DNA of 62,476 nt from Acidobacteriota bacterium (GTDB lineage Bacteria > Acidobacteriota > Thermoanaerobaculia > Thermoanaerobaculales > Thermoanaerobaculaceae), in the NCBI GenBank assembly GCA_003158745.1, contig PMLC01000075.1, positions 1-62,476 of the forward strand, in the 5' to 3' direction. The notes under the pieces are model-generated. The model had not been told where the DNA came from and made no database searches. It saw only the letters and a program-made list of their open reading frames with translations. How positions within the stretch are numbered: position 1 is the first letter of the stretch; every line of letters starts with the position of its first letter. The position numbers and the translations under genes are program-made. This document shows, in pieces, positions 60,135 through 62,476 of this stretch.

Positions 60135-60986
60135 ATGCCGAACTGGCTCAAGACGACGGTCCTCCTGGCCCTTCTCACCGGCCTTCTCCTGTGGCTCGGT
60201 GACCTCCTGGGCGGACAGCAGGGGCTGCTGATGGCGCTGGCGTTTGCCGGCGCGTTGAACTTCGCGGCGTACTTCTTCTCGGACAAGATCGCCCTGGCGA
60301 TGCACCATGCACAGCCCGTGGACGAGGCCTCGGCGCCGCAGCTGTACGCCGCGGTCGCCGAGCTCTCGCAACGGGCGGGCATCCCCATGCCGCGTCTCTA
60401 CGTGATCCCCGAGATGCAGCCCAACGCCTTCGCCACCGGCCGCTCGCCCAGCCACGCCGCGGTGGCCGTCACGGAAGGCTTGCTCCGCGTCATGGACCGG
60501 GAAGAGCTCAAGGGCGTTCTCGCTCACGAGCTGAATCACGTGCTCCACTACGACATCCTGATCTCGTCGGTGGCGGCGACGATCGCCGGCGCGCTCGCGA
60601 TGCTGGCCCGCATGGCCGGGTACGCCATGATGTTCGCCGGCCGGGGGGACCGCCAGGAGCGCGGAGGCGGCTTCGGGGGCCTGTTTTTCATCATCGTCGC
60701 GCCGATCGCCGCCATGGTGATCCAGCTCGCCATCTCGCGCTCGCGGGAGTTCGCCGCCGACGAGGGCAGCGCCAAGCTCACCGGCTCACCGACCGGTCTC
60801 GTGTCGGCCCTCCGAAAGCTCGGGGCCTACACCGAGCGTATCCCGATGGCGACCGCGCAGCCCACAACCGCGCACATGATGATCGCAAGCCCGTTTCCCG
60901 GCGGCGGCCTGATGCAGCTCTTCGCGACGCACCCGCCGATGGAGAAGCGCATCGCCCGTCTCGAGGCGATGGTCGGGAGGATGTGA
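60135..60986 (+). CDS. htpX: Membrane zinc metalloprotease HtpX
   Basis: 283 residues, M48 family, cleaves damaged inner-membrane proteins. Two helices at the N-terminus (about 5-25, 30-50), zinc site HELNH (about 136) with third ligand Glu in SREFAADEGSAKL (about 205), two central helices (about 145-200), and the C-terminal THPPMEKRIARLE. GGAGG before the ATG. The sigma-54 promoter upstream suggests envelope-stress control by a sigma-54 activator. Confidence 0.95.
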   Translation: MPNWLKTTVLLALLTGLLLWLGDLLGGQQGLLMALAFAGALNFAAYFFSDKIALAMHHAQPVDEASAPQLYAAVAELSQRAGIPMPRLYVIPEMQPNAFATGRSPSHAAVAVTEGLLRVMDREELKGVLAHELNHVLHYDILISSVAATIAGALAMLARMAGYAMMFAGRGDRQERGGGFGGLFFIIVAPIAAMVIQLAISRSREFAADEGSAKLTGSPTGLVSALRKLGAYTERIPMATAQPTTAHMMIASPFPGGGLMQLFATHPPMEKRIARLEAMVGRM

Positions 60987-61305
60987 GCGCGAGCCACGCT
61001 GCGTTCCTCACACATGGAATCAACGGCCGCACCCGAGTAGGGCTCCGCCCACGGCCCCGCGCGCGCCGAGTGTCACGACGGCGCAACAGGAGCAAATGCC
61101 CTTCTTCCGGTTTATGAGGAACTATTAGTCCCCGGTTGCTCGGCAGTCTCCAGTAGACACAACAAGATCTAGGATGATATCCTGAAACGATTTCGGAGGT
61201 CTTCATGACTCTATTACCAGAGAGTAAACCAAGCCTCCGAGTCTCGGTTTGCCCTTTTCCAATAGTCCATCTAATCCGCGTTAGGCGTGCCCCTGAGGTG
61301 TGAAG
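60987..61305 (+). other. Junction between htpX and cassette array
   Basis: About 320 bp with a drop in GC. It ends at GTTAGGC (61280-61286), the same 7-nt core as the attC site at 61864-61870, and so marks the left edge of the first cassette. A 32-codon frame (61205-61303) with a good GGAGGT site overlaps the next gene and could be a leader peptide. No inverse core or integrase gene is seen, so an attI or the scar of an excised integrase region is possible. Confidence 0.4.
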
Positions 61306-61749
61306 ATGTTCGGATCAGAAGAGAGGAGCGATGTCATTAGCCGAGTCGAGGCGCACCTGCGCCGCGAGTTCCCGCGATTGTCGTTCGAGCGAGATGGCAA
61401 ATCGTTGCGTGTACCGCCCGGAGGCGACTCGGGCTTTCAGGTCGAACTCGTGGATGCCGGACAGGAGGTCGTGCCAGTTCTCGGTGGCTGGGTCGCGTAC
61501 GGCCTGGATGAGGATCAGGCAGTGCCGCTCTTCCTCGCAGGCGTCGCCGGGGCTGCCCGCGTTCGCGAGGTGAGCCGCGCCAACGTTGCATACCGGTGGA
61601 CGGTGGAGGTTCGTCGGGACGACGCTTGGGTCTCCGAGGGCAATCACTACTCGGTTCCCCTGTTTGGCGGCGCAGTCCCTCTGTTCGGGCGGAAGCGGGA
61701 GCGCATTCTCTGGAACGACCCGAACAGGCTCGGGAAGGCTACTGGGTGA
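61306..61749 (+). CDS. Integron cassette protein 1, unknown function
   Basis: 147 residues. ATG 61306 with GAGGTG 5 nt upstream. Soluble, mixed alpha/beta: ISRVEAHLRREFPRLSFERDG, then VLGGWVAYGLDEDQAVPLFLAG and VRRDDAWVSEGNHYSVPLFGG. No family recognised. It fills the cassette almost exactly, with the attC site starting 20 nt after the stop, as expected for a cassette gene. Confidence 0.65.
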   Translation: MFGSEERSDVISRVEAHLRREFPRLSFERDGKSLRVPPGGDSGFQVELVDAGQEVVPVLGGWVAYGLDEDQAVPLFLAGVAGAARVREVSRANVAYRWTVEVRRDDAWVSEGNHYSVPLFGGAVPLFGRKRERILWNDPNRLGKATG

Positions 61750-61769
61750 GGTCATATGACGGGCGGCAC

Positions 61770-61870
61770 GCCTAACAGCGCGCTGGACCTGACGGTCCGG
61801 CCTGTCACGCCCGTTGCAGGGGCGCAACGGGCGCGCCAGTCCGGCCCGCAGGTCAGCGCGGGCGTTAGGC
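61770..61870 (+). other. attC recombination site
   Basis: Begins with inverse core GCCTAAC (61770-61776) and ends with core GTTAGGC (61864-61870), 101 bp. The arms pair: after the left core CGCGCTGGACCTG faces, on the other strand, CGCGCTGACCTG, leaving one extrahelical G, a hallmark used for strand choice. The central part contains CCTGTCAC and a GCCCGTTGC/GCAACGGGC hairpin (61809-61831). Confidence 0.85.
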
Positions 61871-61941
61871 GGCGCTCACGACCGTTCGCTTCCCGACCTT
61901 CCGCCGTTGGGGGCAGCGCAATCGCCCGCGTTGGAGCCTCG

Positions 61942-62418
61942 GTGCCCACCTGGTCACGGGCGGTACTGGACCGCCCGCACGATGGGCTGCTCACCTTCGG
62001 CTGGAAGCAGTGGATCGCGTTCGTGGGCCTGCTCGGAGGCGTACTAATAGTCGTGTACGTCGCTGTTCCGGACAATCCCATTAGAGTGTGGTACTGGCTG
62101 AACGTGGTGGGGCCCAAACAAGAAGCGCGGTACGGCTTCAAGGTGCGGCTTGGCGAGAATCAACACTATTGCATGGAAGTCAGCCAAGTCGAGTCCGGTG
62201 GCGCGTTTGATCTGGCTGGTGTGAAGGAGGGGTGGGCGATCTCCGAGCAGAGTTGTCTCGGGTTTCACGTGAGTGAACTCTTCTTCAGCGAGCTACGGGG
62301 AGCCAAGGGACAAAGCACCTTAAGGCTGGTCTTCCTCCTGGGGGGGTGTGCCGGCCTTTACGAGAAAACGTCTGAACACCGCCAGGTGAGAGTGGTCGCG
62401 CCAAAGGGCGCCGCCTAA
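61942..62418 (+). CDS. Integron cassette protein 2, membrane-anchored PDZ-like
   Basis: 158 residues from GTG 61942 (GGAG 5 nt upstream); the frame is open to 61756 through the attC site, which cannot be coding start. One helix (about 23-42) after FGWKQWIAF, then an exported PDZ-like domain: GFKVRLGENQHYCMEV, GGAFDLAGVKEGW and LRGAKGQSTLRLVFL. PDZ modules bind C-terminal peptides; no protease domain is attached. Function unknown. Confidence 0.6.
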   Translation: MPTWSRAVLDRPHDGLLTFGWKQWIAFVGLLGGVLIVVYVAVPDNPIRVWYWLNVVGPKQEARYGFKVRLGENQHYCMEVSQVESGGAFDLAGVKEGWAISEQSCLGFHVSELFFSELRGAKGQSTLRLVFLLGGCAGLYEKTSEHRQVRVVAPKGAA

Positions 62419-62476
62419 GATGCCGTTGCAGCCGCCTGTCACTCGCCTGCAAGCCGGCGCTGCGCGCCGGGCAGGC
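62412..62476 (+). other. Start of a second attC-like site, cut by window edge
   Basis: From the stop of cassette gene 2: CCGCCTAAG (core variant of GCCTAAC), then GTTGCAGCCGCCTGTCACTC, which shares CCTGTCAC and the GTTGCAG with the first attC. The rest is beyond the window. Confidence 0.55.

Follow-up and report, generated by a model that had tools for sequence, protein, structure and literature searches.

An integrase-less gene-cassette array headed by a stand-alone copy of attI in a Thermoanaerobaculaceae-like acidobacterial genome

How does an array of integron gene cassettes come to stand in a region that holds no integrase gene? The question is raised by the right end of the window analysed here, which is the entire 62,476-bp contig C140 of the MAG G000 (3.74 Mb, 163 contigs, 96% complete). 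We compared this genome with eight congeneric Acidobacteria (Thermoanaerobaculaceae-like) MAGs, giving a set of nine genomes, all of them fragmented, with assemblies that break at cassette arrays. All features described below for the window lie on its forward strand. An htpX-like M48 peptidase gene (60135-60986; Pfam PF01435, E 7.3e-33), with orthologues in 8/8 congeners, is followed by a spacer and then by a GTTAGGC core (61280), a gene for a 149-aa protein, an attC site, a second gene and a further attC site cut by the contig end. The initial annotation had read this region as a cassette array without integrase, either a CALIN or an array whose integrase lay further to the right. The contig end is indeed a real integron gene-cassette array without integrase.

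The attC of the first cassette (61770-61870) is 101 bp long and is bounded, as had been claimed, by GCCTAAC (61770-61776) and GTTAGGC (61864-61870). Folded as DNA, its bottom strand reaches -55.3 kcal/mol, which relative to 200 dinucleotide shuffles is a z of -9.5, and a GCCTAAC...GTTAGGC pair of this kind appeared in none of 60 Markov simulations of the window. The single extrahelical base described earlier comes close to this fold, which has single unpaired bases on one arm and a central spacer. An attC covariance model built from 11 sites, this one among its training sequences, scored it at 83.5 bits (E 1.1e-15). Independently of the model, attC sites of other arrays in G002 and G004 match its full length at 90-95% identity. 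The second attC starts at 62411 and is interrupted by the contig end at 62476; its covariance match, truncated at the 3' end, has an E value of 0.022, and over 64 bp it matches a whole attC of G001:C45 at 97% identity. Both sites share CCTGTCAC, as the initial annotation had noted. Across the nine congeneric genomes the model returned 83 matches at E <= 0.01, a few of which are antisense echoes, in eight. In the alignment of the attC set, which had been fitted to the structure, 88% of cells are paired, against 27-44% when slid, and 31 of 35 pairs have changed on both sides.

Neither of the two same-strand cassette genes matches a family in Pfam, NCBIfam or PADLOC, in agreement with the first reading of the sequence. 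The first (61300-61749; 149 aa) has an alternative ATG start at 61306, and a search for its product on plasmids found none. For the second (61871-62418), the mechanical ORF opens at 61756 and spans the attC, so that the true start is probably downstream of the site, beyond 61870. By eye, its product contains a PDZ-like stretch (SGGAFDLAGVKEGWAI; window 62150-62290) after a hydrophobic segment, with no Pfam match. With one whole and one cut attC and no nearby intI, the array itself belongs to a known class and is by definition a CALIN (at least two attC sites without a nearby intI).

Where, then, is the integrase? No intI was detected in the window, nor above the TIGR02249 cut-off in the whole G000 assembly. 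The suggestion that the integrase lies to the right is rejected on synteny, since the right end of the locus is lpxA and the equivalent loci of G001 and G002 run htpX-array-lpxA without intI. The right part of the window array is found on G000:C35, whose first 1.1 kb hold one gene, followed by lpxA at 1114-1905; no overlap between C140 and C35 was found and the gap between them is unclosed. The gene preceding lpxA on C35 looks acetyltransferase-like by eye.

Among the congeners, four of eight encode an intI above the TIGR02249 cut-off and the other four do not. These are true IntI integrases (413-473 bits in TIGR02249; best PDB match IntI4, 2a3v, E 4.5e-85), their genes head four of the congeneric arrays, and each reads towards its attI and array, co-oriented with them. 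In G001, G002 and G004 the intI locus has a DnaE-type polymerase gene as its neighbour. In a DNA search this polymerase gene gave strong matches in 7/8 congeners (only repeat hits in G008) and was absent from G000. As the flanking gene is missing together with intI, the absence of an integrase from G000 may reflect an assembly gap rather than true loss. The gene beside the intI locus is of the DNA polymerase III alpha type, possibly DnaE2 (L173:3656-5926, and also near intI in G001, G002 and G004).

To the left of the first gene, the GTTAGGC core that the initial annotation had also recorded lies at 61280-61286 and is preceded by an inverted L-type box (TCTAAT). A BLAST search of 61107-61290 against 60 related genomes returned matches confined to the genus. 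The segment 61107-61286, delimited by BLAST, alignment and a leader covariance model, resembles the sequence directly 3' of intI in G001 (82%), G002 (87% over 60 bp) and G004 (84% over 61 bp). It is therefore homologous to the attI adjoining intI, has the core GTTAGGC, and constitutes a stand-alone attI platform with a promoter-like site, a Shine-Dalgarno sequence, a leader ORF and the attI itself. In most copies the aligned module begins near CTGTGGACGGATTA; it ends at a GTTRRRY core, where homology between sites stops. This homology rules out the core as the tail of a lost attC, and it makes the label CALIN, correct by definition, incomplete: the left core is the crossover site of an entire attI module, which the genus also has in its integron with intI.

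The leader covariance model, built on the last 120 bp of the module, found 21 clear copies across the nine genomes, of which 4 adjoin intI and 17, the window copy included, do not. Same-strand attC sites lie within 1 kb of 9 of these 17 intI-less copies, against a chance expectation of 0.02. Several copies are degenerate. Weaker matches of the model, which also head attC arrays, represent a second leader type (type-2, alignment A7). An apparent second leader copy in G010, a member of another genus, was rejected: at G010:C32 the core is missing and the sequence has the look of a fragment of a repeat. When 84,980 species genomes were scanned for an exact pattern, there were ten matches, in Acidobacteria MAGs only (SRVP_14, FW104_bin.1, palsa_272, 37-71-11, RBG_13_68_16 and PFL15), most of them congeners analysed here; the same exact pattern had no match on viral contigs, a search for the leader on plasmids found none, and an Rfam scan gave only sub-threshold chance matches. 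In a tree of the leaders, based on fewer than 190 columns, copies group by species clade together with the intI-adjacent attI of that clade (UFBoot 100 for G000 + G001) rather than by the site of insertion, a pattern suggestive of concerted evolution or of repeated insertion.

Two other kinds of sequence were met around these copies. A GC-rich palindromic repeat of ~235 bp occurs dispersed through the genus, and several platforms have a copy immediately upstream (L050:8434-8663, L153:6642-6878, L151:2278-2511); no copy of it was detected in the window. At G000:C60:3965-4054 (L168), a truncated platform is fused to an apparent attC 3' end, apparently a deletion scar.

Comparison of equivalent loci between species shows what differs and what stays. 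At site B, which adjoins a calcineurin-like phosphoesterase gene, identity between G004 and G008 is 90-96% as far as the end of the core and 48-56% beyond it, that is, at random level (baseline 55%). Such a loss of identity at the GTT core is the signature that would be expected if IntI had inserted different cassettes into a stand-alone attI. The window locus, between htpX and the convergent lpxA, carries arrays with different first cassettes in four species, with type-1 platforms in G000, G001 and G004 and a type-2 platform in G002, and the arrays end before lpxA. In G006 the site is empty: the htpX-lpxA gap is 107 bp and the array is absent. Cassettes are also common to different platforms and species, as between G002:C13 and the first cassette at site B of G008 (87.6%). 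Of the tblastx pairs only the strong ones were used, weak pairs being uninformative in these GC-rich genomes. At the htpX locus of G008 (L056), htpX is closely followed by a 128-bp-type attC start, and no platform is recognisable there, perhaps because of a lost platform or an attG event.

The platform also has elements that may serve expression. The sequence TAGACA-18-TATCCT (61154-61183), with a TG before the second hexamer, is a candidate Pc by consensus match (one found in the scan, 0.2 expected). It is followed by a Shine-Dalgarno sequence, GGAGG (61195-61199), conserved in copies and placed 5 nt upstream of the ATG of a leader ORF, MTLLPESKPSLRVSVCPFPIVHLIRVRRAPEV (61205-61303). The leader runs in frame through the attI core and its TGA overlaps the GTG of the first cassette gene by 4 nt. 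Leader start position and Shine-Dalgarno sequence are conserved among type-1 copies, and wherever a copy has a canonical core, the frame continues across it without a stop (as GTT-AGG); that leader start and core lie a multiple of three apart is so by construction. An NTGA overlap of 4 nt between the cassette start codon and the leader stop occurs in 11/22 first cassettes and in 0/22 in the control frame (Fisher p = 0.0002). The figures for later cassettes are 13/56 and 3/56 (p = 0.013), and the difference between first and later cassettes has p = 0.03; as start-codon choice was mechanical and the cassettes are not all independent, the overlap is suggestive only. A Shine-Dalgarno sequence, an ORF open through the crossover and a stop supplied by the first cassette are the traits of an ORF-11-like leader, and by this analogy suggest translational coupling of the leader to the first cassette.

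We consider it likely that attI/expression platforms have been duplicated and dispersed in these genomes and are loaded in trans by an integrase encoded elsewhere. The array of the window would then be anchored on one of several dispersed genome copies of the platform. An IntI made elsewhere would bind the folded attC of a circular cassette and join it to the double-stranded attI of the stand-alone platform at G^TT, as at its own attI. The promoter, ribosome-binding site and leader of the platform would then express the first cassette, and the leader ORF, crossing the crossover, would take its stop codon from whichever cassette comes first, coupling the translation of the two. In other integrons both insertion at attI and the mechanism of ORF-11 are established; for the present arrays we infer the action of IntI in trans, the copying of platforms (as opposed to their being leftovers) and a working promoter and leader. 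Against this reading, G000 and four of its eight congeners have no intI above the cut-off, at least one intI-less platform of G000 (C41) bears a relic of intI, and several copies are degenerate.

The foremost alternative is that the platforms are decayed integrons, in which an intI once present in cis was deleted and the attI and its array persist as a static relic with no present loading in trans. Such loss does occur in place: the type-2 platform of G000:C41 retains ~20 codons from the end of intI (65% over 20 aa, E 2.7e-6). It matches the intI-attI junction of G010, where a type-2 attI stands beside a full intI, and some stand-alone platforms thus arise by intI loss. Site D of G003 and G006, at the polymerase-flanked locus that bears intI in G001, G002 and G004, fits the same reading. 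However, the type-1 platforms at the htpX, phosphoesterase and nucleoside-transporter sites share a discrete block of ~190 bp with no trace of intI, and beside the window platform tblastn found no intI relic, though the positive controls were detected. Moreover, cassettes differ at sites that are 90-96% identical, so insertion must have continued late, and decay would require many independent intI losses per genome. As an account of the whole pattern, we therefore regard decay as rather unlikely. On C41 itself (L167), the type-2 platform (2373-2481) with its intI 3' relic lies directly downstream of a tRNA-Gly gene (2836-2910); tRNA genes are a typical integration neighbourhood.

Cassettes might otherwise have landed at a secondary site of the attG type, with ordinary chromosome left of the core. 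Entry at genomic attG sites is known (Loot et al. 2024, as cited in PMC12901181 and PMC12444791). Such a target is by definition neither attI nor attC, whereas here a stretch of ~180 bp to the left of the core shows homology to the intI-adjacent attI of congeners and recurs at many unrelated loci. The target is thus an attI homologue, which refutes the attG reading and makes it very improbable. That unrelated palindromic repeats merely mimic attC and attI is scarcely credible: other GC-rich dispersed palindromic repeats do occur near some platforms in the genus, but the covariation of attC, the alternation of sites with ORFs, the arrays headed by intI and the break of identity at GTT refute it.

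Returning to dispersed platforms loaded in trans, the many stand-alone attI copies in related soil Acidobacteria suggest that one integrase can feed several places in a genome. A bolder version, which we advance tentatively as a possibility, sees a dispersing element in the ~180-bp promoter-leader-attI module. IntI or host recombination would copy it into intergenic sites that follow genes, and concerted evolution with the IntI-adjacent attI would keep the copies similar. One integron would thereby become a multi-locus network, one integrase supplying several arrays, each expressed from its own platform. Integrons are described with a single attI adjoining intI. If attI platforms multiply without intI, a genome would hold several capture and expression sites for one integrase. 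This would provide an origin for CALINs at conserved positions, and such platforms would have been overlooked by tools that require intI or model attC alone. It also raises a testable question, namely whether a chromosomal IntI loads attI copies elsewhere in the same genome. A literature search, with most subscription papers outside its reach, returned no account of arrays that begin at dispersed attI copies lacking intI.

Among known systems, the CALINs of Xanthomonas, which lie at conserved loci away from ilvD, are likewise intI-less attC arrays with positions conserved between species and possibly mobilised in trans; the accessible part of their description (PMC12444791) mentions no attI, whereas at the head of the array studied here an attI copy can be recognised, together with promoter-like and leader sequence. 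The sedentary chromosomal integron of Treponema has an intI co-oriented with its array, an atypical orientation (PMC3607928), and the intI of the congeners likewise reads in the same direction as attI and array; unlike Treponema, these genomes carry several extra attI platforms without intI. Sites of the attG type also bear cassette arrays away from the integron (Loot et al. 2024, cited in PMC12901181), but they diverge from attI, whereas the window site is homologous to attI over ~180 bp. The delta-attI-type gene cassettes (PMC12901181) share with our platforms attI-derived sequence outside its usual place, though there attI pieces sit at cassette ends in mobile integrons and here they form stand-alone platforms heading arrays. 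Finally, ORF-11 in the attI1 of class 1 integrons raises translation of the first cassette (review PMC8876359), and the platform leader is similarly a short ORF with a Shine-Dalgarno sequence that spans the crossover and is stopped by the first cassette. It is unrelated to ORF-11 in sequence and lineage and stands on dispersed copies; that such a leader occurs in so remote a lineage suggests that integrons may in general be built to couple translation to their first cassette.
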